Under the pieces are notes generated by a model. It had not been told where the DNA came from. It saw only the letters and a program-made list of their open reading frames with translations, and searched no databases. A stretch of 64,000 nt of DNA from Terriglobus albidus (GTDB lineage Bacteria > Acidobacteriota > Terriglobia > Terriglobales > Acidobacteriaceae). The translations under genes and the position numbers were made by a program. How positions within the stretch are numbered: position 1 is the first letter of the stretch; the number at the start of each line of letters is the position of its first letter. The stretch lies in NCBI RefSeq assembly GCF_008000815.1, contig NZ_CP042806.1, positions 4,960,001 through 5,024,000 on the forward strand, written 5' to 3'. This document shows, in pieces, positions 3,862-51,605 of this stretch.

Positions 3862-4755
3862 CTACTGTTTTTCGGGAGGCTTCAGCCCCAACTCCCGCAT
3901 CACCATCTGCAAATCCTTCCAGGCCTCACCCTTCATCCGGGGATCGCGCAACAGAAAGGCTGGATGGTAGGTCACAGCCACCTTGGCTCCGCGCGCCTGG
4001 TGCCAGGTACCGCGCAGACCGGCAAGCGCCTGCTTCCGGCCCAGCAGATATGTTGCCGCTGTAGAGCCGAGAGCCACAATCACCTTAGGCTGTACGACAT
4101 CGATCTGTTTGATCAGGAACTGCGAACAGGTGGTGGCTTCCACGTACTCCGGAGTACGGTTTGCCGGCGGACGGCACTTCACGATATTGGCGATGTAAAC
4201 CTGCTCACGCTTTATACCCATCGCCGTGATCATGTTGTTGAGCAACTGCCCGGCCTTGCCCACAAAGGGCAGCCCCTGTGCATCTTCATCAGCTCCGGGA
4301 CCTTCCCCGACAAACATGAGCGTGGCGTTCGGGTCACCGTCGGCAAAGACGATCTTGCGGCGTCCGCCATAGGCAAGTGGACAGCGGGTGCAGTCGCCGA
4401 TCTCATCCTGGATCAGCTTCATCGCAGCCGGGCGATCGGCGGCGGGAACCGTCGTCGTCGGCAAAGGAACAAGTTCATCAAAGGAATACAGCTTAGGAAT
4501 GGGAGGCTCTCTCAGCTCCGGCGGCAGCATCTGCGCCGGTTGTGGCTCGCGGTCATCGATCTCCGGCGCAGTCACAGCCGTCACCGGGACCGGTGTTGGT
4601 ACGGGAGCGGGAGGCATAAGCTGCTCGATAACCGCAGAGGCATGTTGCGTCTGCGGAGCCGGCTCGCTCCAACGATAGAACTCGTGTACGCCAAGGTCGC
4701 GGAAGTACGCGACATAGGCCCGCAGCCGCGCGGCGGCCTCAGGCGTGTAAGTCAT
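3862..4755 (-). CDS. Family 4 uracil-DNA glycosylase with 4Fe-4S cluster
   Basis: A 297-aa cytosolic repair enzyme that removes uracil from DNA. The catalytic domain occupies about residues 105-297. Four cysteines in family-4 spacing (C122, C125, C194, C210) should hold the 4Fe-4S cluster. The active-site block is GEGPGADEDAQGLPFVG (150-166) and the second motif HPAFLLRDP (264-272). The first 100 residues are an acidic, proline-rich extension not needed for catalysis, so the protein is longer than the usual 200-220. It follows rpoZ on the same strand across a dispersed palindromic repeat. Confidence 0.93.
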   Translation of the reverse strand: MTYTPEAAARLRAYVAYFRDLGVHEFYRWSEPAPQTQHASAVIEQLMPPAPVPTPVPVTAVTAPEIDDREPQPAQMLPPELREPPIPKLYSFDELVPLPTTTVPAADRPAAMKLIQDEIGDCTRCPLAYGGRRKIVFADGDPNATLMFVGEGPGADEDAQGLPFVGKAGQLLNNMITAMGIKREQVYIANIVKCRPPANRTPEYVEATTCSQFLIKQIDVVQPKVIVALGSTAATYLLGRKQALAGLRGTWHQARGAKVAVTYHPAFLLRDPRMKGEAWKDLQMVMRELGLKPPEKQ

Positions 4756-4764
4756 ACAACGATC

Positions 4765-4876
4765 TTAGAGCGTTTTCCCTGTTGCTGGGTATCCCGTCAG
4801 GGGCATGCAGCGGCGTTTTCATTGCGGAAAACGCCATGGATGCGGAAGCCCTAGACCTACAGAGAAAATGCTCTAA
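4765..4876. repeat. Palindromic intergenic repeat, copy A
   Basis: A 112-bp element. Ends TTAGAGCGTTTTCCCTG and CAGAGAAAATGCTCTAA are inverted repeats with two mismatches, and the centre is a 9-bp hairpin, GGCGTTTTC/GAAAACGCC (4812-4835). Further copies occur at 19371-19488, 47451-47563 (opposite orientation) and 48575-48679. The outer end overlaps rpoZ and supplies its TAG stop codon. No protein is encoded. Confidence 0.9.
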
Positions 4877-5076
4877 AGCACAGACTCGATGTCGGGCTTC
4901 AACTCGGTTTTGGGAACGACAAACTTTACCTGCCCGGAGAGAATCTCGTCCTGGGCAACACGGCATGCCTTCATCGATTTAGACGCGATCAGAGGGGCTG
5001 CACCCGACTGCAGTTGACGCGCACGGCGCGCCGCTCCCTTAACCAGGCTGTACTTATTGACGAGCTTTGGATCCAT
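4873..5076 (-). CDS. rpoZ: RNA polymerase omega subunit
   Basis: A 67-aa protein in the usual rpoZ position after gmk and yicC. Omega helps fold and assemble the beta-prime subunit. The core MDPKLVNKYSLVKGAARRAR followed by A(A)PLI..KS.K.C.VAQ.EI..G.V matches short acidobacterial or deltaproteobacterial omega proteins. The start at 5076 is preferred over an in-frame ATG at 5130 because GGAGG lies 7 bases before it and homology begins there. The stop codon falls inside the end of repeat copy A. Confidence 0.85.
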   Translation of the reverse strand: MDPKLVNKYSLVKGAARRARQLQSGAAPLIASKSMKACRVAQDEILSGQVKFVVPKTELKPDIESVL

Positions 5077-5187
5077 TGCTTGCCTCCGTATGCAAGCAAT
5101 GTACCCGCTCGCATCGGAGTCGCCAAGCATGAATTTACGCTGTGGATTTTCGAGGTCGAATTCGGGAATGAAAGTACGAGAGGCGAA

Positions 5188-5853
5188 CTAATCCCTGGCA
5201 AAGCTGTGGAGCGAATGGCTCAGCCGCTCCGACATCGCCGAGGTGCGGCACGACTGTGCCAGCTCACGCAGATAGCGTCCTTCTTCCCCACGCTCGGTCA
5301 TGACGACCGCCTTCAGCTCCGTCACCGCCTGGTCCAGCACGTCATTCACCACGGCGTATTTGTACTTCTCCAGAAACTGCAGTTCGTTCCGTGCCTCAGT
5401 CAGCCGCCGCTGAATCACCGTCTCGTCGCTCATGTTTTCGGCCAGCGACCGGTTACGCAGCCGCATCTCAAGCACCTGCGGGCTCGGCGGCAGGATGAAG
5501 ATGGAGATTGCGTCCGGCATCTTCTGCATCACCTGCATCGCTCCCTGCACGTCGATATCAAGCAGCAGGTCGTGGTTGTGCTGCCGTGCCTGATCCAGCG
5601 CCGAACGCGCCGTGCCGTAGTAGTTGCCGAAGACCTCGGCCCACTCCAGGAATTCATCACGGGCGATCATCGCCTCAAAGTTTTCACGCGTGGTGAAGTG
5701 ATACGCCTCGCCATCCACCTCAGAACCGCGCGGCGCGCGGGTGGTGTAGGAGACCGAAAATTCAAGCCCGGCCACAAGCGAGCGGACACCGGCCACAAGA
5801 GTCGACTTACCCGAGCCGGAAGGCGCGGAGATGATGAAGAGAATGCCTGCCAT
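5188..5853 (-). CDS. gmk: Guanylate kinase
   Basis: A 221-aa cytosolic kinase that phosphorylates GMP to GDP with ATP. The P-loop is APSGSGKST (10-18), followed by the GMP-binding block SVSYTTRAPRGSEVDGEAYHF and the FLEWAEVFGNYYGT segment. The length is normal for the family. It lies between yicC and rpoZ on the same strand, the order common in Gram-negative genomes, and works in purine nucleotide synthesis with the guaB product encoded elsewhere in the window. Confidence 0.97.
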   Translation of the reverse strand: MAGILFIISAPSGSGKSTLVAGVRSLVAGLEFSVSYTTRAPRGSEVDGEAYHFTTRENFEAMIARDEFLEWAEVFGNYYGTARSALDQARQHNHDLLLDIDVQGAMQVMQKMPDAISIFILPPSPQVLEMRLRNRSLAENMSDETVIQRRLTEARNELQFLEKYKYAVVNDVLDQAVTELKAVVMTERGEEGRYLRELAQSCRTSAMSERLSHSLHSFARD

Positions 5854-5930
5854 CAGAAGAAATGTTTCTTTTGGAAAGTGTACATAACACGGTGCCTTCT
5901 ATGTTTCGCAAGGAAACGAGCTGGTAGAAA

Positions 5931-5973
5931 AGCAGATTTCTCCGTTCCCTGCGGTCGCTCCGAAATGACAAAA
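5931..5973 (+). repeat. Dispersed 43-bp repeat, copy 1
   Basis: A segment with core CAGATTTCTCCG..CCC..GGTCGCT.CGAAATGACAAA, also found at 39161-39203 (minus strand) and 51529-51572. It lies between gmk and yicC and is followed by a low-complexity run of CTAGCAACTAG-like words (5991-6033). It is not coding. Confidence 0.8.
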
Positions 5974-6048
5974 AGGGAGTACCGGCTATCCCAACTAGCA
6001 ACTAGCAACCAGCAACCAGGAACTAGCAACTGGGCGGCACAGCCGCCC

Positions 6049-6954
6049 TTATTCCAGGTTCTGTACCTGTTCCCTTGCCTTTTCGATCACCGTCTTGAGC
6101 TCCAGGCCAAGCTCGGTGATCCTGAGGCCATTTGCCGTGTTGGCTCCGCTGGTCTTGGAGAGCAGCGTATTTGATTCCCGGTTCAGTTCCTGCAGCAGGA
6201 AGTCGAGTTTCTTCCCCAATTCTCCACCGGCGGCGAGCAGGCCACGGAAGTGGTCGACGTGGGTCTTCAGCCGGACGATCTCCTCTTCCACGTCACTGCG
6301 TTCGGCCATGATCGCGGCCTCGGAGAGCAGACGCTCTTCGCTGATACTGACGCCTTCGGTCAGCTCCGCAATCCGGGTCCGGATACGCTCGTAGTAGCTG
6401 GCGCGCACGTCGACCCGCAGCGTGTTCACTTCGTCTGCAACAGCCCCGATACGCACCATGCAGGTATCGAGCTCGGCCACGAGCGCCGCACCCTCCTGGG
6501 CCCGCATTGACCGCAGCGAGGCAATCAGCGGTTCCACCTCCTGCAGCACAGCCGCCTCAATCTGCTCCGGCCTCAGCTCAGAATCTTCGCCATCCGAGCT
6601 GAACACTCCGGGCATGCGCAGAATGCTGGAGAGGTCCGGTTCGCCGGACAGGCTATTCTCCTCCGCCGCCCGACGATACGCGTCGACATACGCGGCCACA
6701 GCGGTACGGTCATACTGCAGTGTGCGCTGCCGCTGGCGATCGAGCTGCAGTGTTACCTCGACATGGCCGCGGCGCAACTGCTCCTTGAGCAGCTTGCGAA
6801 GCTGCATCTCCAGCGCATCGCAACCGGCGGGAAGGCGCATATGCAGATCGAGGAAACGGTGGTTGACACTCTTCAGCGAGAGCGTAAATCCAACGCCCTC
6901 AGCCACACTGCCTTGAATACGGGCAAACCCCGTCATCGAATATGCAAGACTCAT
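6049..6954 (-). CDS. yicC: YicC family endoribonuclease
   Basis: A 301-aa protein of the YicC/YloC family. E. coli YicC was reported as an endoribonuclease that can act on small RNAs. The hallmark N-terminus SMTGFARIQG (6-15) is followed by LKSVNHRFLDLHMRLP (27-42), and the C-terminal block KLDFLLQELNRESNTLLSKT is the most conserved part of the family. Its start overlaps the end of the upstream ABC exporter gene by 4 bp (ATGA), so the two are translationally coupled. Confidence 0.93.
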   Translation of the reverse strand: MSLAYSMTGFARIQGSVAEGVGFTLSLKSVNHRFLDLHMRLPAGCDALEMQLRKLLKEQLRRGHVEVTLQLDRQRQRTLQYDRTAVAAYVDAYRRAAEENSLSGEPDLSSILRMPGVFSSDGEDSELRPEQIEAAVLQEVEPLIASLRSMRAQEGAALVAELDTCMVRIGAVADEVNTLRVDVRASYYERIRTRIAELTEGVSISEERLLSEAAIMAERSDVEEEIVRLKTHVDHFRGLLAAGGELGKKLDFLLQELNRESNTLLSKTSGANTANGLRITELGLELKTVIEKAREQVQNLE

Positions 6955-8798
6955 GCGGTCCCTTCCGCAACAGTTTCAACAGCCCGGTCATTGACGAACT
7001 GCAGGTCATACAGCCGCTTGTACGTGCCGGAGAGCTGTAGCAGCTCCTCGTGCGACCCAATCTCGGTAATCTGCCCTTGCTCGATCACTGCGATGCGGTC
7101 GGCGCGGCGAACCGTGCTCAACCGATGCGCAATCACAAATACTGTACGTCCCTGCATCAGGTTGGCCAGGGCGGCCTGCACCAGGGACTCGCTCTCCGTA
7201 TCCAGCGCCGAGGTCGCCTCGTCCAGAATCAGGATCGGCGCATTCTTGAGCAGAGCTCGCGCAATCGCCAGACGCTGGCGTTCCCCACCGGAGAGACGCG
7301 CGCCCTTTTCGCCGATCATGGTGTCGTAACCGTTCGGCAACCGCTCAATGAAATCGTGCGCCAGAGCCGCCTTCGCAGCCTCCTGTACCCGGGCTAACGG
7401 CACATCGGGCTGGCCATACGCGATGTTGTTGCGCACCGTGTCATTGAACAGAACGATTTCCTGCGTCACCTTGCCGATCAGCTTGCGCAACGATGCGATG
7501 GTGACGTCGCGCAGATCGTGACCATCGACTGAGATCGCCCCTTCGGTCACATCGAAGAAGCGCGGGATCAGATTCACCAGTGTCGACTTGCCGGCGCCGC
7601 TGGGGCCGACAAAGGCGATCACCTCGCCACGCCTCACATCCAGATTGATGTCCCGCAGCACCTGCTTCTGCTCATGATCAACCTCATACGCAAAGCCGAC
7701 GTGTTCAAACCGGATTTCGTTCTGGAAGCCCTGTAGGGGAAGTGCCTTCTTCTTCTCGATCACATCATCCTGAGCGTCCATGAATCGGAATATCTCATCA
7801 CTGGCGCCGAGTGCCTGCTGAAAGCTGTTGTAGAACAGGGCAAACTTGCGCACCGGGTCATACAACGTGAATACGGCCACCAGAAACGAGATGAATGATC
7901 CGGCCGTCATCTCATGCCTCAGAATGCGATCACGCCCAAATAACAACAGCAGCGCAATAGCGACCGACCCAATGGCGTCCATTAGCGGGGAGCTAATCGC
8001 CTGCACGCTCACGCTCTTCAGATTGGCGCTGAAGAGACGGCGCGCCGCCTTGCGGAAGCGGTTCATCTCCCATAGCTCCATGCCGAAGGCCTTCACGATG
8101 CGGTTGCCGGTGATGGTCTCGTGCAGGATGTTCTGAATCTCGGCCAGCTTGTCCTGGCCCTTCCGAGTAGTGCTCCGAACACTGCGACCAATGCGCCGCG
8201 CCGACGAGATCACCACCGGCACAAACAACAGGAGCACCCAGCTCAGCCTGCCACCCATCAGAACCACGACCACCGCCGTCCACAATAATGTGAAGAACTG
8301 CTGCAGCAGTTCACTCAACACCGACGACATCGCAACCTGAACTTTTTCGATGTCGTTGATCAGCGTCGAAAGCAGCGTACCCGTCGTGTGCCGCTGAAAG
8401 AACGCGACCGAGCGGCGAAGGACGGCGTTATAGAGGTCGTTGCGCAGATCGGTGATCATGCCGAAGCCGGCGTAGTTCACCAGATAGGTCCCGAAGTAAT
8501 CGCAGATGCTCTTCACGAGCGCCGAACACACCAGAGCATAGGCCACCACCGTCCAGGCATGGTGAAAGTGATTCGGTACAAACCATTGCAGATTGAGCGT
8601 CAGGTTCCAGAACGGAATGTGGAAGACCAGAACGTCCCGCGAGAGCGCATCCGGTCGCAACACATTGTCGAAGATCGGCTTGACCAGAAGAATGCGGAAG
8701 GCCGCCATTGCCCCGACGATCGCCATCAGCACGACCGAGGCCAGCGAGTAAAGCATGTATGGCCGCGCGTATAGCAGCAACCTCCAGATGCGCCTCAA
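6951..8798 (-). CDS. msbA: MsbA-like ABC exporter, fused permease and ATPase
   Basis: A 615-aa half-transporter. The N-terminal exporter domain (about 1-320) has six membrane helices. The ATPase domain has Walker A GPSGAGKST (398-406), signature LSGGERQR and Walker B ILILDEATSALD. The family flips lipid A core or other lipids from the inner to the outer leaflet. Its place between rapZ/hpf/rpoN/lptB and yicC, close to the Lpt genes, favours an envelope-lipid role, but other type-IV exporters look alike. The 82 bp upstream hold no obvious strong promoter, so read-through from rapZ is likely. Confidence 0.88.
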   Translation of the reverse strand: MRRIWRLLLYARPYMLYSLASVVLMAIVGAMAAFRILLVKPIFDNVLRPDALSRDVLVFHIPFWNLTLNLQWFVPNHFHHAWTVVAYALVCSALVKSICDYFGTYLVNYAGFGMITDLRNDLYNAVLRRSVAFFQRHTTGTLLSTLINDIEKVQVAMSSVLSELLQQFFTLLWTAVVVVLMGGRLSWVLLLFVPVVISSARRIGRSVRSTTRKGQDKLAEIQNILHETITGNRIVKAFGMELWEMNRFRKAARRLFSANLKSVSVQAISSPLMDAIGSVAIALLLLFGRDRILRHEMTAGSFISFLVAVFTLYDPVRKFALFYNSFQQALGASDEIFRFMDAQDDVIEKKKALPLQGFQNEIRFEHVGFAYEVDHEQKQVLRDINLDVRRGEVIAFVGPSGAGKSTLVNLIPRFFDVTEGAISVDGHDLRDVTIASLRKLIGKVTQEIVLFNDTVRNNIAYGQPDVPLARVQEAAKAALAHDFIERLPNGYDTMIGEKGARLSGGERQRLAIARALLKNAPILILDEATSALDTESESLVQAALANLMQGRTVFVIAHRLSTVRRADRIAVIEQGQITEIGSHEELLQLSGTYKRLYDLQFVNDRAVETVAEGTA

Positions 8799-39130: not shown

Positions 39131-39203
39131 CATTCGAGCGAAGCTCGAACCGCCCTTTTTGTCATTTCGTAGCGACCAACGGGAGCGAAGAAATCTGCTT
39201 CTC
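39131..39203 (-). repeat. Dispersed repeat, copy 2, with hairpin
   Basis: Minus-strand copy of the 43-bp repeat (39161-39203), joined to a TTCGAGCGAAGCTCGAA hairpin and a CCCTTTTTG run (39133-39161). The same combination, in the other orientation, is at 51525-51605. Placed after the ferritin-like gene, the hairpin plus T-run may end its transcript. The stretch 39204-39411 has no gene and should hold the promoter of the peptide cluster, though I see no clear -35/-10. Confidence 0.75.
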
Positions 39204-39411
39204 CACCGATGCAAACTGGAAAAGCCGATCCCTTCGGGATCGGCTCGATAACAGCTAGGAGCAGAGCAGCCGCGCTCACACGCCAATCGTCTCGGGAGTT
39301 CTCTAAAATCACGTGCGATATCGGTCGACAATTTACGTCTTGCTTCCCTCCACGGCAACGTGTTACATCTTTCATCAATCTATTTTTTGCGACGTTGACA
39401 AAGGGATTCAT

Positions 39412-39594
39412 ATGAGCGGTAACTTCCCGACTGTAAATTCTCGCCCCTTATTTCGGCCCGGCACCTTTCGTAAACGGCCGAACGGCACGCAGGGGCATCT
39501 TCTGAAAATAGCGCAGCTACCTCCTTATTTTCGCTACTGTTTAACGCTACTTGTCTTTGTGCTGGCAGCAGTAGCGATTCAGTTCGCTCTTTAG
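39412..39594 (+). CDS. 60-aa membrane peptide at the head of the peptide cluster
   Basis: A 60-aa open frame with AAAGGG 7 bases before its ATG. The first 35 residues are basic and Pro-rich; the last 25 form one membrane helix (CLTLLVFVLAAVAIQFAL) that ends the protein. I recognise no family. It lies 34 bp before the C39 exporter on the same strand, so it probably belongs to the cluster as an accessory, immunity or membrane-tether peptide. It has no double-glycine leader and so is unlikely to be a second precursor. Confidence 0.6.
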   Translation: MSGNFPTVNSRPLFRPGTFRKRPNGTQGHLLKIAQLPPYFRYCLTLLVFVLAAVAIQFAL

Positions 39595-39628
39595 CGATCT
39601 TCTTACGCTCCTGGGGAGGGGCATTGCG

Positions 39629-41788
39629 ATGAGACAGCGATTACCGCTGATCATGCAAGCGGAAACCAGTGAATGTGGCGTCGTATGCCTTGCGATGATC
39701 GCAGGCTTTTATGGACGCGCGACTACTCTCTCCTCATTGCGGCGAGAGTGCTCCACCTCTCTCAGAGGATTGACCTTAGAACACCTGATTACCGCCGCAC
39801 AACGGCTGCATCTTGCCTCACGGCCTCTTCGAGTCGAACTCAGCGAACTACAAGAGGTATCTCTTCCATGCATCCTCCATTGGGAGATGTCTCATTTTGT
39901 GGTCTTGCGGTCAGTCTCGCGAAGCCACCTCACAATTCACGATCCTGCCATCGGCGTAAGACGCATTTCGCTTGAAAATGCCGATCAGTCTTTTACAGGA
40001 GTCGTGCTTGAACTGTGGCCAACCGAAGACTTTACCAGAAAGTCCGATTCAGTTCCTGTTACGATCACAGAACTCTTGGGAAGCGTTTCCGGCGTCCGCC
40101 GTCTAGGCGCTAAGACGCTGTTCTTGTCCGCTCTCACTGAACTTCTCGTTATTTGCACGCCGCTTCTTCTTCAGTTCACGGTCGATCGTGCTACTGCAGG
40201 CCAAGGCAACATTCTTTACATGGGCGTAGTTGCATTGACGGTGTGTTGCCTTTTGGAAGCGCTGGCAACGCTCAGCCGCGACTTGTCAATCATCAACCTC
40301 GGTAATCGAATCAGCCTTGCCTGGCAATCGAACCTGCTTTCTCATCTTTTGCAGTTGTCTTTACCATTTTTCGAAAAGCGCTCCACAGGCGACCTCCTCT
40401 CACGATTTGATGCGGCCGAAAGCGTTCGGCTCATGCTCGTGGGCTCGTATGCCAATATCCTGGTCAGCGGTCTGGTCACTGCCTTCACCTTAGTGGCGAT
40501 GTTCTTTTACAGCCCTGTTCTCGCATCTATAGTGATTGCCGGTGCGATTGTATTCCTCGGAATCCGGCAAGGCACCCTGCGGAAGATTCGCGAAGCATCG
40601 GCGAGCCAGAACATGCACGAAGTAGCACTTCGGTCGCATCTCCTGGAGACCTTGCAAGGCATTCGGCCTATAAAACTTTTTAAGAAAACCGGCTGGCGGA
40701 ATTCTCATTGGCTGAATGTCTTAGTGGATCTCATGAACGCGCGTTCCACTACTGAAACAACCCGAAGCTGGATCAACGGCAGCAACACAGCCATCCTCGG
40801 GGTGGAATTAGCCCTCGTGATTGGTATTGGTGGACATCTTCTCCTTCTGCATAAATTTAGCGTTGGGGCGTTCCTTGCGTTTCTTGTGTATCGAGATCAC
40901 TTCAATGTACGTGCCTTTGCACTCATCAACGGTACTTATGACCTGAGTGCGATGTCGACGCAATTGAGTCGTGTCGGAGACATCGTCAGAGAATCCCCCG
41001 ATAGCGCGGCTGCCGCCAAGTTGGAGGCTGAAAGCATGCCCCCCTCTCCTTACAGCATGGAAATTAACGACGTTTCGTTTCGGTATTCCGATCATGATCC
41101 GTGGATCATTCAGAATCTATGCCTCCGCATCCAGCAGGGCGAGTGCGTGTCGATTACGGGGCGTTCGGGTATTGGAAAGTCGACTTTGGTGAAGTTGATG
41201 TGCGGATTGTTGCGCCCAAATGAAGGTGAGATCTACGCCAACGGCAAACCGCTGAATGAAGAGCACTCACTGGGTGTCGTTCTCCAGGAGGACATGGTTT
41301 TCGCTGGGACGATTGCTGAGAACATCCATTTTTTTGCTGAAACGCCGGACGGTTCACTGATTGAACACTGTGCACGCCTCGCCGCTTTGGCCGAAGATAT
41401 CGACGCGATGCCAATGCGGTATCAAACTCAGGTAGGCACAGGAGGGGCGGGATTGTCAGGAGGGCAGAAGCAACGGCTCCTCATAGCACGCGCACTCTAT
41501 ACCAAGCCATCCATCCTGATTTTTGACGAATCGACGAGTCATCTAGACCTGCTGACGGAGCGCACCATCTCACAATCGCTCTCCGCTCTTTCGATTACCA
41601 GGATTCTCATTGCACATCGCCCTGAAACTATCGCGATCGCTGATAGAGTAGTGGCCTTTAGAGATCGCAAGCTTATCGACATTACTGACAAGTTTCGGGC
41701 TTTGCCCCCGAAAACGAGTGGCCAAACCGCTCGGGACTATACGCAAAGGAGCAGTACGCACTATGTCTACAGCAATGAACAATGGTAA
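39629..41788 (+). CDS. C39-peptidase ABC exporter for double-glycine peptides
   Basis: A 719-aa peptidase-containing ABC transporter. The N-terminal C39 domain (1-130) has C16 in AETSECG, H89 in HWEMSHF and D105 in IHDPAIG, a complete catalytic triad. An exporter domain of six helices follows (about 155-440), then an ATPase with Walker A GRSGIGKST (511-519), signature LSGGQKQR and Walker B ILIFDESTSHLD. Such proteins cut leader peptides after Gly-Gly and export the core. The precursor gene overlaps its last 26 bp. GGGAGGGG precedes the start. Codon use is less GC-rich than the flanking genes, which suggests transfer. Confidence 0.93.
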   Translation: MRQRLPLIMQAETSECGVVCLAMIAGFYGRATTLSSLRRECSTSLRGLTLEHLITAAQRLHLASRPLRVELSELQEVSLPCILHWEMSHFVVLRSVSRSHLTIHDPAIGVRRISLENADQSFTGVVLELWPTEDFTRKSDSVPVTITELLGSVSGVRRLGAKTLFLSALTELLVICTPLLLQFTVDRATAGQGNILYMGVVALTVCCLLEALATLSRDLSIINLGNRISLAWQSNLLSHLLQLSLPFFEKRSTGDLLSRFDAAESVRLMLVGSYANILVSGLVTAFTLVAMFFYSPVLASIVIAGAIVFLGIRQGTLRKIREASASQNMHEVALRSHLLETLQGIRPIKLFKKTGWRNSHWLNVLVDLMNARSTTETTRSWINGSNTAILGVELALVIGIGGHLLLLHKFSVGAFLAFLVYRDHFNVRAFALINGTYDLSAMSTQLSRVGDIVRESPDSAAAAKLEAESMPPSPYSMEINDVSFRYSDHDPWIIQNLCLRIQQGECVSITGRSGIGKSTLVKLMCGLLRPNEGEIYANGKPLNEEHSLGVVLQEDMVFAGTIAENIHFFAETPDGSLIEHCARLAALAEDIDAMPMRYQTQVGTGGAGLSGGQKQRLLIARALYTKPSILIFDESTSHLDLLTERTISQSLSALSITRILIAHRPETIAIADRVVAFRDRKLIDITDKFRALPPKTSGQTARDYTQRSSTHYVYSNEQW

Positions 41789-41945
41789 ACGGGTTTTCGC
41801 GCGTGCGAATGCACGCATCCTAACTGCCGATGAGTTGAAGCTGGTCAGCGGAGGCGACGATGGCGACTCCACCTCGAATGGGACGACCAAAGGTGGGGCA
41901 GACAGCGTTGTCGTCGTAGACGACATCACCGTTCCGGGCGCTTAA
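41763..41945 (+). CDS. Double-glycine precursor peptide, probable graspetide precursor
   Basis: A 60-aa peptide. Residues 1-31 look like a secretion leader with the motif LTADELKLVSGG (20-31), the LS..EL..V.GG form cut by C39 peptidases. The 29-residue core (32-60) starts DDGDSTSNGTTKGG and ends VVVVDDITVPGA. It has six Asp, and eight Ser/Thr/Lys that could form side-chain ester or amide bonds. There is no Cys, Trp or Glu. AAGGAG lies 11 bases before the ATG, and the gene starts inside the exporter gene. The ATP-grasp gene follows at once. A second Gly-Gly at 44-45 could be another processing point. Confidence 0.75.
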   Translation: MSTAMNNGKRVFARANARILTADELKLVSGGDDGDSTSNGTTKGGADSVVVVDDITVPGA

Positions 41946-41956
41946 CCAAGTAAATC

Positions 41957-41997
41957 ATGAGGCTCCATGCTGCTCACATAGGGCAATGGAGCCTCAT
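41957..41997 (+). promoter_or_regulatory. Perfect 12-bp stem-loop between precursor and ligase genes
   Basis: Arms 41957-41968 and 41986-41997 are perfectly complementary, with a 17-base loop. No T-run follows, so it is not a classic terminator. It lies 11 bp after the precursor stop, where an attenuator or RNA-stabilising hairpin would raise precursor over enzyme. It also covers the first ATG of the ligase frame, which argues against that start. Confidence 0.75.
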
Positions 41998-42025
41998 CGG
42001 CAATAGGTGTTTGCGAAAGGGCAAT

Positions 42026-43087
42026 GTGGCTATCATCATAATTTCGGATCTTGTGGACTATCATGCGGCCGCTGTGGCTTGGGCTCTTGCCGCCACAGGC
42101 GTTCCCTACGTCCAGTGGGAGGGCATTGGGTATGAAGAACCCCGGCAAGCGTCAATTGAACTCGGCTCGTATACACGAGTACGCTTAGGTGGCCATCTGG
42201 TGAGCAAAAACGACGTGATATGGTTTCGTCGACCTCGGCAGCTCTCTTACCATCCAGACATGGCCGTCCTTGATCGGCGGTTTGCGATGCTAGAGTCCTT
42301 GCGCTTTTCAGAATGCCTAGGAGCTGCTCTCGACGAGATCGGCTGTCGCTGTGTCAATTCTCCTACGGCTGTCTATGACATTAACCGTAAGGCAGCGCAG
42401 ATTATCCTGGCGCACAAAGTTGGATTGTTAGTTCCCCATACGCTTATGGGGAATCAGCCTCCGGAGATCGAAGATTTTTTCCGGTCGGTCGAGAACGATG
42501 CTGTTTATAAGGCTTTCTTACCGCATCTCTGGTTCGATCCTGACACCGAATCGCAGGCAATATTGGAAACAAAAAATATCTCTTCATTAGCAAACGACGT
42601 GATTGAAGTTGCCACGTATACTCCGGGAATCTATCAAAAGCGCGTTCGCAAAGTTGCCGATATTCGTGTTCTCGTAATGGGCGAGCTAATGCGCGCGTTT
42701 GTTCTCCATTCAGAGGCTCTGGATTGGAGATATACGCAGGACTATGCAGATCTAAAAATTAAGGAAAGAGCGATACCTGCGCCCATTCGTAGCCTCATTG
42801 AGCAATTCATGTCCGCGGCAGGAATTGTCACCGGCTCATTGGACTTCGGGCTGGATGAACATGGTCAGTGGTGGTTCTTCGAGATCAACGAATCCGGTCA
42901 ATTCTTATGGATCGATCACTCTATGGAGGGCGCCGGTGTATTCCAAGACTTTCTGGCATTTCTTAGCGGAAAGCCCCGAGAGCTCTTCCCCTGTCTAAAA
43001 GATTATCGGCATGATGACTCGATCCTCGACTCACGCCCGAAAGAGATGGCTCCAATAGTCACGGTGGAACATCTCGGAGTTTGTTAG
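42026..43087 (+). CDS. ATP-grasp peptide ligase of the MvdC/MvdD (graspetide) type
   Basis: About 353 aa from the GTG at 42026. The N-terminal domain begins VAIIIISDLVDYH and has the WFRRP motif typical of MvdC/MvdD-like ligases. The ATP-grasp part has DINRKAAQIILA, then QKRVRKVADIRVLVMG, then the metal-binding DFGLDEHGQWWFFEINESGQF, with E and N of FEIN as ligands. These enzymes join Ser/Thr or Lys side chains to Asp/Glu in a precursor. The in-frame ATG at 41957 lies in a hairpin, lacks a ribosome site and adds 23 residues without family match; TTG at 42011 is another option. AAGGG lies just before the GTG. Confidence 0.85.
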   Translation: MAIIIISDLVDYHAAAVAWALAATGVPYVQWEGIGYEEPRQASIELGSYTRVRLGGHLVSKNDVIWFRRPRQLSYHPDMAVLDRRFAMLESLRFSECLGAALDEIGCRCVNSPTAVYDINRKAAQIILAHKVGLLVPHTLMGNQPPEIEDFFRSVENDAVYKAFLPHLWFDPDTESQAILETKNISSLANDVIEVATYTPGIYQKRVRKVADIRVLVMGELMRAFVLHSEALDWRYTQDYADLKIKERAIPAPIRSLIEQFMSAAGIVTGSLDFGLDEHGQWWFFEINESGQFLWIDHSMEGAGVFQDFLAFLSGKPRELFPCLKDYRHDDSILDSRPKEMAPIVTVEHLGVC

Positions 43088-43107
43088 CGGAAAGGATATG
43101 TTGACCG

Positions 43108-43968
43108 ATGTGGAGTTTTAAGATGAACATCGTGGGCCCGATGCTGTTGAGCGGAGTGCTGCTAGTGACGGAGTTGGTCTGCGTTGCCAAAACTCCTCCT
43201 GTGGAGCAGCCGAAGCAACAACCGGGCACATGTTGTGCGCAAGGTTTTGATGTCGTTTCGATCAAGCAAACGAAGGAGAATTCGGACAATGTTCTGATGT
43301 TCTCAAGGGAGGATGGTTTCAATGCCCAGAATGTGCATGTCGCGGCACTTTTGAACTACGCTTTCGATGCGCATGAATATCAGATTATCGGTTTACCGGA
43401 TTGGGCCCGGTCTACAACGTTCGACGTTGTTGGAAAATTTTCCGATCCGAATGAAGTGGCCCTAAAGAAAGCTACCCTGGAGGAGCGGGAAGAATGGGTG
43501 GCCAAAATCTTGGTAGAAAGATTCCATCTTGTGTCTCATAAAGAGAAGCGGGTCATGCCGGTCTATGATTTGACCGTGAGCAAGGATGGCTTTAAGGCCA
43601 AGCAATCTCAGCCCGCAACCGTCGATCAAGGCCACCTAGCCGATTCCGTCAATCCACAGCAGGGCATGCTGTATGCGACCAATCGAAGTATCTTTGGAAA
43701 GAGCGCGCCATTTTCAGATCTTGCACCACTTCTTTCCGGAATCGTTAACAGATCCGTTATAGACAAGACTGGTGTCACAGGAAGCTACGACATTAAATTG
43801 GTCTGGACCCCGGAACAGGCTATGCTATCGAATGCTCCACAAAGTAGCCAAGGCCCACCGGATATCTATACAGCTCTCCAGCAACAACTTGGCCTACGAC
43901 TTAGCAGCAGCAAAGCGCCAGTCGATGTTCTTGTGATCGATTCCATCAGTTTTCCTATTGCGAACTGA
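43108..43968 (+). CDS. TIGR03435 family protein (acidobacterial)
   Basis: A 286-aa protein with an N-terminal export segment (about 8-27). It has TIGR03435 landmarks: FDVVSIKQTKE, the ILVERFHLVSHKEKRVMPVYDLTVSKDG core, and VIDKTGVTGSYDIKLVWTP near the C-terminus. The family is greatly expanded in Acidobacteriota and has no established function. It starts 20 bp after the ligase gene. An ATG at 43123 with GGAG 8 bases upstream is an equally good start. Its stop overlaps the next start by one base, so it belongs to the peptide cluster transcript. Confidence 0.85.
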   Translation: MWSFKMNIVGPMLLSGVLLVTELVCVAKTPPVEQPKQQPGTCCAQGFDVVSIKQTKENSDNVLMFSREDGFNAQNVHVAALLNYAFDAHEYQIIGLPDWARSTTFDVVGKFSDPNEVALKKATLEEREEWVAKILVERFHLVSHKEKRVMPVYDLTVSKDGFKAKQSQPATVDQGHLADSVNPQQGMLYATNRSIFGKSAPFSDLAPLLSGIVNRSVIDKTGVTGSYDIKLVWTPEQAMLSNAPQSSQGPPDIYTALQQQLGLRLSSSKAPVDVLVIDSISFPIAN

Positions 43969-44936
43969 TGGAATTGAGACAAATTCTTAGGCTATCGGCT
44001 ATACCAGAAAATATGTATTCGGTCTTCAAATACGCTTCGTTGAGATTCCTGACTGTGCTTGCCGGCCTCATGCTGGCCTCTACTATGCATTTGTATGCAT
44101 CGGCACCCTGTCGCTCAATTCCCGGTGCAGCTCAGCTCTGGTCTGATTTTAAGACTCGCTGGGTTTGGATCGGCGAAACCCACGGAACCTCCGAGATTCC
44201 TGCGGCTTTCGGCGACTTGGTCTGTGACGCTCTTGCTCAAGGACGCGTCGTCACGGTGGTTCTTGAACGGCCTGCCACAGAGCAGACAGCAATTGACGGG
44301 CTCATTAGCTCCAGCGATCCTAGCTGGAGCGAAAACCAACTTCTCAACCAGCCCGATTGGCAGAATGTCTTCGATGGGAGAACTAGCAAGGCCATGCTAA
44401 AGCTTCTTCTCCGGCTTCGAGAGCTGAAGAAGGAATATCCGGCGATGCGTGTATCCGCAATCGTCAACTTCGCATCGGCCTCATCAGATAGTCAGATCAA
44501 GGATGATGACGTAGATAAAGCTATCGGCCGCGCTGTTTTGGCGCTAGAGAGGAAGGAACCCAGAAATATTGTGTTGGTTCTCACCGGAAACGTCCATGGT
44601 ATGAAGAGTCCCGTACTGGGTTACAAGACTGCGGCGATGTACCTTCCGTCCGAAGGTCTTGTTTCACTGGAAGTGACGGGTCTAGGTGGAGATGCCTGGA
44701 CAATGCATCGTGGCGCTTGTGGCCCTGGCCCCGCCGGAGTCCGCGACAAGGATACAAATCGCTCATTGGGAATCTATCTCCATGGCGATTTAGCACCAGT
44801 AGGGAAAGTAGATGGCATTTTAGCTTTAGGCGAACCGACTTCGGCGTCATCTCCTGCAAACTCAACGATGCTGGAAGGCGCTCCTTGTCGAGAAGTGTTT
44901 TCCTCTCGACAGAGGGAAGAATCGTCTCCCAACTGA
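43968..44936 (+). CDS. EreA/ChaN-like secreted protein
   Basis: A 322-aa protein with a hydrophobic export segment (about 25-44). The mature part starts like the erythromycin-esterase/ChaN superfamily: WVWIGETHGTSEIPAAFGDL, then VVTVVLERPATEQTAIDG, and later VLVLTGNVHGMKSP with a conserved His. These proteins use Glu/His pairs for hydrolysis or haem/iron binding. Its start is coupled to the TIGR03435 stop (TGATG). It may modify, open or bind the exported peptide, or give self-protection; that is inference. An internal ATG at 44013 is an alternative start. The next 266 bp hold no gene. Confidence 0.65.
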   Translation: MELRQILRLSAIPENMYSVFKYASLRFLTVLAGLMLASTMHLYASAPCRSIPGAAQLWSDFKTRWVWIGETHGTSEIPAAFGDLVCDALAQGRVVTVVLERPATEQTAIDGLISSSDPSWSENQLLNQPDWQNVFDGRTSKAMLKLLLRLRELKKEYPAMRVSAIVNFASASSDSQIKDDDVDKAIGRAVLALERKEPRNIVLVLTGNVHGMKSPVLGYKTAAMYLPSEGLVSLEVTGLGGDAWTMHRGACGPGPAGVRDKDTNRSLGIYLHGDLAPVGKVDGILALGEPTSASSPANSTMLEGAPCREVFSSRQREESSPN

Positions 44937-45202
44937 AGAATTGATTTCCCGAAGTTGTTCTGCCTGTGAGAAGGGGGCGTTTCACTCCTTCCCGCTCCGG
45001 CCGCCTTGCGTCATGCGTCACCCACAACAGCGGGACATTCCTTTCCGCAACGCCCTTCCTCTAAGTCTTGTGCGCTAACACGCACGAATGCGGTTGACAG
45101 GCTTTGCTAAGGGGCTCCGCCAATCGCGCGGCGCTAGGCATCCTGAATCTCCGCACCTGGCTTGTGCAGACCTCCTGTACGTTCCGTCCTTTCCGCGCCA
45201 GC

Positions 45203-45826
45203 TTAGCCATCGATAAAGCCCCGCTTGATTGCAATAGTTACCGCATGCGTGCGGTCGTTCGCGCCAAGTTTGGAGAGGATACTTTTCATGTGCCCTTTGA
45301 TGGTGGCTTCGGAGACGGACAACTGAGCTCCGATGATCTTGTTTGAGTTTCCGTCTGCGACACGCCGTAGTACTTCAATCTCGCGATCGCTGAGCGCATC
45401 CTCGGTCATATGCTCCGCGAGCTCAGCTGCTATTTCCGGCGGAATCCTTCTCTTGCCGGCGTTCACAGCGCGGATCGTCTCCAGCAAGTCTTTCCGCAGC
45501 ATGCTTTTAAGAAGATATCCGGAGGCCCCTGCCTTCAAGGCACGAAACGCCTGCACGTCACCCTGGTAGGTCGTAAGCACAACGAATCGAGCATCTGGAA
45601 ACTCCGACCGGATGGCAACGATCGTCTCGATACCGTTCATCCCCGGCATCTGCAGATCCATCAGGGTTACATCGGGTCGGTGGCGACGAAAGAGTTCAAT
45701 CGCCTCCTGCCCATTCGCCGCTTCGGCGACAAGCTCGACGTCCTGCTCACCTTCCAGTACAGCGGCGATTCCTTCACGCAGCAGGGGGTGGTCGTCTACA
45801 GTGAGAACCTTGATGATCTTTGTCAC
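45203..45826 (-). CDS. NarL/FixJ-type response regulator, orphan
   Basis: A 207-aa regulator. The receiver domain (1-120) has D57 as phosphorylation site in LMDLQMPGMNG, with acidic D11-D12 and K106. The LuxR-type helix-turn-helix (about 142-205) has LSDREIEVLRRVADGNSNK and SVSEATIKGHMKSILSKLGANDR. No histidine kinase is adjacent, so its partner is encoded elsewhere. It diverges from the DoxX-like gene. Confidence 0.93.
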   Translation of the reverse strand: MTKIIKVLTVDDHPLLREGIAAVLEGEQDVELVAEAANGQEAIELFRRHRPDVTLMDLQMPGMNGIETIVAIRSEFPDARFVVLTTYQGDVQAFRALKAGASGYLLKSMLRKDLLETIRAVNAGKRRIPPEIAAELAEHMTEDALSDREIEVLRRVADGNSNKIIGAQLSVSEATIKGHMKSILSKLGANDRTHAVTIAIKRGFIDG

Positions 45827-51524: not shown

Positions 51525-51605
51525 AGAGAAGCGGATTTCTCCGCTCCCGTTGGTCGCTGCGAAATGACAAATAAAAGCGGTTCGAGCACAGCTCGAACCG
51601 CTCTC
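51525..51605 (+). repeat. Dispersed repeat, copy 3, with hairpin
   Basis: The 43-bp repeat (51529-51572) is followed by AGCGGTTCGAG..CTCGAACCGCT, an 11-bp perfect stem (51576-51602). The same two parts, in reverse, occur at 39131-39203; copy 1 at 5931-5973 lacks the hairpin. It fills the gap between the glycoside hydrolase gene start and the response-regulator gene end. Confidence 0.78.

Follow-up and report, generated by a model that had tools for sequence, protein, structure and literature searches.

The six genes at positions 39412-44936 of the window, which is the whole 64,000-nucleotide stretch of DNA analysed here (positions 4,960,001-5,024,000 on C1 of the closed 6.4 Mb genome), raise the question of whether they make and export a cross-linked peptide and, if so, where such a peptide would be released. 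The original prediction had described this locus as a graspetide cluster, and the features on which that description was built were recovered. All six open reading frames (ORFs) are present on the + strand, the gaps below 35 bp or overlaps hold when the ligase is counted from the ATG at 41957 (in gene order, a gap of 34 bp, an overlap of 26 bp, gaps of 11 and 20 bp and an overlap of 1 bp), and the LTADELKLVSGG leader of the 60-aa precursor and the WFRRP, DIRV and FEIN motifs of the ATP-grasp protein were all found. The locus is lower in GC than its flanks, as had been noted, with 49-54% in the six 1-kb bins at 39-45 kb against 54-61% in the ten bins on each side, and the lowest GC of the neighbourhood falls on the six-gene stretch. 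A scan for signals gave two promoter-like (4.6 expected) and seven terminator-like ones (5.8 expected). The features are as follows.

39412..39594, + strand: membrane peptide of 60 aa, probably the anchor-only remainder of an HlyD-type adaptor (position, PLFRP, one helix)
39629..41788, + strand: C39 peptidase ABC exporter (PCAT), 719 aa (Peptidase_C39, ABC_membrane, ABC_tran)
41763..41945, + strand: precursor, 60 aa, with a 31-aa leader ending in GG and a 29-aa core (leader profile)
42026..43087, + strand: graspetide ATP-grasp ligase by profile, tree and fold, 353 aa from GTG
41957..43087, + strand: the same ligase from ATG, 376 aa (alternative start)
43108..43968, + strand: TIGR03435/DUF3738 protein, 286 aa, probable passenger or accessory (181.3 bits)
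43968..44936, + strand: distant Tiki/ChaN-like protein, 322 aa, probable passenger or accessory (PF04187, E=0.21)
39241..45203, no strand: stretch of about 5.96 kb missing from two collinear congeners, all six genes inside (alignment)

Profile scores, a tree and the predicted fold all place the ATP-grasp protein among the graspetide (microviridin-type) ligases. It scored 156.2 bits (E=1.1e-45) with TIGR04187, below the curated cut-off of 350, 88.1 bits with MvdC (cut-off 425) and 81.2 bits with MvdD (cut-off 475), against 24.2 bits with the RimK models; the scores with the NCBIfam graspetide-ligase models are all below cut-off, yet far above those of RimK. Sequence matches in the PDB at E<1e-5 were 9bou (PruB), CdnC, MdnC, AMdnB, MdnB and 7drm (PsnB). 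The predicted model of the ligase (pLDDT 83.3, pTM 0.83; 11 sequences) retrieved graspetide macrocyclases at Foldseek ranks 1-30 and RimK from rank 31. D212/R214 and E286/N288, numbered from the GTG start, are invariant in 11 sequences and are presumably the catalytic residues. In a ligase tree of 49 rows, restricted to matches of more than 230 residues and with long branches for several rows elsewhere, the window sequence grouped with those of loci L039 and L040 at 100/98 and lay inside a 22-row acidobacterial set, L069 included, with a support of 100/100. Grouping with non-peptide ligases, the outcome that had been named in advance as speaking against the cluster, was not seen, the best PDB matches and the top 30 fold matches being graspetide ligases. 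It is highly unlikely that the enzyme is RimK-like, adding amino acids or joining the peptide to something else and forming no rings; a weak RimK model score and the RimK folds from rank 31 onwards speak for a RimK-like enzyme, while graspetide ligases that are far ahead by both sequence and fold, and a precursor core rich in donors and acceptors alike, speak against it.

In the alignment, the homologues have their start Met at the position of the GTG at 42026, so that the ligase most likely starts there (353 aa) and the gap between precursor and ligase is therefore 80 bp. Counting its own genome each time, the ligase was matched in 9 of 200 sampled genomes of the family (E<=0.001), 6 of 399 of the class (1e-50) and 6 of 396 of the phylum (1e-30), and a search of plasmid records gave 65 matches, all below 60% identity.

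The precursor is one of an acidobacterial family whose leader, RVLxRxGARxL...GG, combines a conserved front half, RVLxRxGARxL, with a C39 site, L(-12)xxxE(-8)L(-7)...GG. A profile built from 14 leaders of other loci, without the window sequence, was run on 12,550 ORFs taken from the window and 31 loci; it gave E=1.4e-6 for the window precursor and 7e-10, 3e-6 and 6.7e-4 for those of L039, L069 and L040, respectively. Pfam and NCBIfam gave no credible match to the window precursor, and leader families gave only an unrelated one (E=0.23). The window leader carries L(-12), E(-8), L(-7) and GG, in agreement with the PCAT leader rule, L(-12)xxxE(-8)L(-7) plus GG, set out in a passage of PMC8277102. 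The same 31 residues contain no proline, hence no Phhx(1,2)h motif; this motif is reported, in the relevant part of Makarova et al. (PMC8939145), for only about half of graspetide precursors, and therefore does not define the class.

The 29-aa core, encoded next to the ligase, is rich in S/T/K and D and holds S/T/K donors and D/E acceptors. Core kinds in the family include TxTxC...DGD...EC at Angelobacter-type loci, and (S)NPDxxxDQ and similar sequences, and the cores of the window clade (window, L039, L040) end in xVxxDDxxV. The alignment of the window core was clearly beyond chance only with L039 (25 of 5000 shuffles as good); with L040 it was borderline (266 of 5000), and similarity to L069 (828 of 5000), L044 (1376) and L026 (3038) was not beyond chance. 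At locus L028 of genome G106, 14 leader-bearing ORFs (E<=7.3e-7) stand in a row at 4600-8195, flanked by a single C39 exporter and a single ligase; other contigs of G106 carry more ligases. More distant graspetide-like ligases occur in other acidobacterial genomes (L036 and L092, the latter with three in a row), and the leader profile found no window-type leader at either locus. Precursors near the weak ligase relatives L035-L038 and L092-L094 were covered by this profile only.

The exporter matched Peptidase_C39 at 124 bits and both ABC_membrane and ABC_tran above their cut-offs. The complete C/H/D triad ascribed to its C39 domain is indeed there, Q10, C16, H89 and D105 being present and invariant in nine aligned exporters, and a C39 domain with Q, C, H and D fused to an ABC exporter identifies the protein as a PCAT. 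The gene-order comparison that had been suggested disclosed the order C39 exporter-precursor-ligase on other acidobacterial contigs as well. The ligase, precursor and exporter families thus support the reading as a graspetide cluster whose precursor has a GG leader and whose exporter is of the C39 type, and to judge from sequence the six-gene stretch very probably encodes a ring-locked peptide and its inner-membrane export.

HlyD-type adaptors are encoded directly upstream of the related C39 exporters and come in three sizes. Full-length forms are found at L069 (431 aa; 104.9 bits with TIGR01843, below its cut-off of 208.65) and L134 (a 478-aa frame). Hairpin-less adaptors of about 190-210 aa at L041, L042, L044 and L045 align to residues of about 1-83 and 304-422 of the L069 adaptor, the middle missing, and those of L028 and L140 were classed with them by profile and length. 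Anchor-only forms are those of L043 (79 aa), L050 (90 aa), L039 (87 aa, from GTG), L136 (71-77 aa), L040 (short, with TTG starts only, on a contig with runs of N) and the window (60 aa). No adaptor match was obtained at exporter loci L137 and L138, so that the tally over 16 loci is two full-length, six hairpin-less, six anchor-only and two without a match. Eight further stretches were available, of which five were analysed for adaptors and three are apparently the L040, L041 and L050 contigs again. In the ligase tree L043 and L050 group with L041, apart from the subtree that holds the window, L039 and L040; since anchor-only loci occur in two separate subtrees, the shortening looks repeated. 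It also extends beyond graspetide loci, as L136 is not one: at 3913-8586 of its contig (genome G175) it has a radical-SAM-like ORF (by eye), a 403-aa ORF, the anchor-only adaptor and a C39 exporter. At L050 (3-5537), the graspetide locus is immediately preceded, on its upstream side, by a large ORF that by eye resembles a non-ribosomal peptide synthetase.

The 60-aa peptide of the window has a PLFRP tail and one membrane helix ending at its last residue, with no periplasmic barrel, lipoyl or hairpin domains, and shares both place and motif with the adaptors upstream of related C39 exporters. It had no match in Pfam or NCBIfam. With a profile of five long adaptors applied to 7,443 ORFs it scored E=0.43, the next ORF, an unrelated one, having 0.79, and L050 (1.3e-16), L043 (1.3e-13), L040 (0.0013) and L039 (0.071) all came ahead of it; with a nine-sequence profile to which the short forms had been added it scored E=0.021, the next having 0.3, and was the best ORF outside the training set. 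Its sequence score alone is unconvincing, and its position directly before the exporter carries most weight. Mainly on the ground of this position, the peptide is probably an HlyD-type adaptor cut to its cytoplasmic tail and membrane helix, and it was classed as a probable remnant and not as an adaptor because the ORF stops where the helix does, 34 bp before the start of the C39 gene. Small membrane proteins are frequent companions of peptide clusters, and with a profile score so near noise the peptide might instead be unrelated to HlyD and serve the cluster as a small membrane protein with an immunity or accessory function. This is rather unlikely, considering that it occupies the exact adaptor place of its relatives, has PLFRP and one helix in common with their adaptors, and ranks first outside the training set of the nine-sequence profile.

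The remnant-adaptor assignment is used in the following proposal for the route of the peptide. Recruited by the leader through its N-terminal part (KRVFARANARIL), the ligase would use ATP to join Ser/Thr/Lys side chains of the core to Asp carboxylates; D22 and D23, the DD pair close to the C-terminus of the core, would probably be among the acceptors. The C39 domain would then recognise L(-12)xxxE(-8)L(-7) and cut after GG, the ABC part would carry the core across the inner membrane, and the 60-aa anchor, its tail and helix touching the transporter, would maintain the exporter in an active or assembled state. For HlyD lacking its N-terminal cytoplasmic helix, a passage of PMC4446572 describes a stop in both TolC recruitment and activation of the HlyB ATPase. 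An anchor-activated exporter with periplasmic release is proposed because the anchor-only form keeps the HlyD tail and helix and drops the part that contacts TolC; as such an anchor cannot reach an outer-membrane channel, the peptide would be released into the periplasm, barring an adaptor in trans. The whole reading, a graspetide biosynthesis and export unit with an anchor-type adaptor and periplasmic release, is given a probability of about 0.65.

The main rival keeps the same graspetide and C39 processing and places export outside the cell, through an adaptor and an outer-membrane channel encoded elsewhere. The 31 weak HlyD-model matches in the genome make an adaptor in trans readily conceivable; a second C39 gene at C1:5469308 has an HlyD-model match just upstream and, by eye, a second ABC ORF and one resembling TolC at the same locus, and the relatives L069 and L134 keep full-length adaptors. 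Against it, a search of this genome with the L069 adaptor gave no hit at E<=0.001, albeit with a weak, single-sequence query, and several loci have shortened the adaptor gene instead of plainly losing it, which suggests that the retained piece has some function of its own. Export in trans is possible though the less favoured, and it is compatible with periplasmic release. The second C39 locus (G000:C1:5465000-5475000, L107), where a TolC-like ORF, an HlyD-like adaptor and a second ABC ORF were named partly by eye, also holds a Nif11-like peptide whose leader ends in LSEEELDSVAGG, and was read as an NHLM-type system.

Periplasmic release may be considered for the phylum at large. Tentatively, and at somewhat less than even odds, Acidobacteria may have repeatedly reduced the adaptor of C39 exporters to a tail-plus-helix microprotein of 60-90 aa, which would act as a dedicated exporter subunit, with cross-linked peptides going to the periplasm and not outside.

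The locus as a whole is absent from two congeners that share long collinear parts with the window, 39241-45203 being missing from both. One (G569, L099) aligns up to 39240 and resumes at 45204 with 64 bp in between; the other (G128, L098) aligns up to 39069 and also resumes at 45204, with 394 bp in between. The ligase profile matched 1 of 19 genomes of the genus, the window's own. The ferritin-like gene upstream of the stretch is present in 3 of the 19, the window's own included, and the other two do not have the stretch. To judge from their rarity and lower GC, the six genes appear to be a discrete gain in this lineage; a loss in the others is less likely. An origin of the six-gene stretch ancestral to the genus was considered and rejected, given the ligase in 1 of 19 genomes and the two congeners that carry the ferritin-like gene without the stretch. 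Direct repeats were not found at the two ends of 39241-45203, and on this ground, together with a ligase scan of viral contigs that found no relative, a mobile-element or phage origin was rejected as well, the check for transposases covering the six ORFs as read. A dispersed repeat of about 55-72 bp occurs in both orientations at 39133-39203, 51526-51597 and 5923-5977 of the window; the left end of the stretch lies directly after one copy, and that copy is also found in congener L099.

The original prediction had further taken all six genes to be one system, and for the last two this was not supported. The TIGR03435 protein, with 181.3 bits against a cut-off of 40, belongs to a family with 33 matches in this genome. 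The last gene reached PF04187 at E=0.21 (12 bits, below the cut-off of 27.7; 21.3 bits for its best homologue), its best PDB match by sequence had an E of only 0.72, and its single-sequence model (pLDDT 38.9) was useless for fold. Among the related loci examined, blastp found no homologue of either protein. Of 150 genomes searched, 4 others had homologues of the last gene, and in the stretches fetched around them blastp found no homologue of the ligase, C39 exporter or precursor. Since both genes ride on the inserted stretch, a role for them is possible, but it is unsupported. They could still be a working pair for periplasmic maturation, resistance or ester opening, as both begin with signal-peptide-like segments (by eye), and Tiki/TraB-family peptidases are predicted, in a passage of Makarova et al. 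(PMC8939145), to be co-expressed with some branch 2 graspetide ligases. The 33 copies of TIGR03435, the related loci devoid of both genes by blastp and the four homologue loci devoid of the cluster genes make such a pair unlikely.

Compared with known systems, the window ligase has the ATP-grasp macrocyclase fold of MdnB/MdnC (microviridin), CdnC (chryseoviridin), PsnB (plesiocin) and PruB (Streptomyces coelicolor), but is only about 20-26% identical to these in the fold alignments and belongs to a separate acidobacterial clade. As in known graspetides (omega-ester-containing peptides), a precursor with a leader and a D/S/T/K-rich core adjoins the ligase. The leader of the family is nevertheless RVLxRxGARxL, with no proline, in place of PFFARFL, and its cores are distinguished by DD near the end (window clade) or by TxTxC...DGD...EC (Angelobacter-type). 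In the parts of two surveys that deal with gene neighbourhoods, C39 PCAT and HlyD are the most frequent partner families of graspetide ligases (Makarova et al. 2022, PMC8939145), and groups 26, 30, 32 and 40 have a neighbouring protease or PCAT (Carter et al. 2026, PMC13097080). The window resembles such loci, for which HlyD-family partners are known, in that a leader-cutting exporter is encoded with the ligase. The difference lies in the adaptor, since most of the acidobacterial relatives examined carry just a hairpin-less or anchor-only form. The 60-aa peptide has the N-terminal LFRPE-type tail, the single helix and the gene position directly upstream of C39 of HlyD/CvaA-type membrane fusion proteins, but not their periplasmic barrel, lipoyl domain and hairpin. 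BesA, described in a passage of PMC4446572 as an adaptor without a hairpin, is likewise shortened, but it is part of an RND pump and keeps its periplasmic portion. A literature search on shortened adaptors led no further than passages of PMC8277102 and PMC4446572.

The peptide had also been presented as of a type not described from this phylum. At the level of the class this does not stand, as a 2026 review (PMC13001092) mentions, in the part concerned, a few group-13 graspetide clusters from Acidobacteria; for this particular family, novelty is likely. The main texts of PMC8939145 and PMC13097080 do not contain the string 'acidobacter', and the family was not found in the accessible parts of the graspetide and microviridin literature on Acidobacteria/Acidobacteriota, PMC12136951, PMC7750434, PMC11520301 and PMC11118758 included, a scope that excludes supplements and most subscription papers.

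If true, these findings would add a precursor and ligase clade to the graspetides, from a phylum of abundant and poorly studied soil bacteria, and arrays in which one ligase is accompanied by as many as 14 precursors, as at L028, would be suited to studies of enzyme tolerance. They would also mean that adaptor truncation was made by nature several times over. The series of full, hairpin-less and anchor-only adaptors makes a long-standing question testable, namely the role of the HlyD tail and helix beyond the TolC tunnel.
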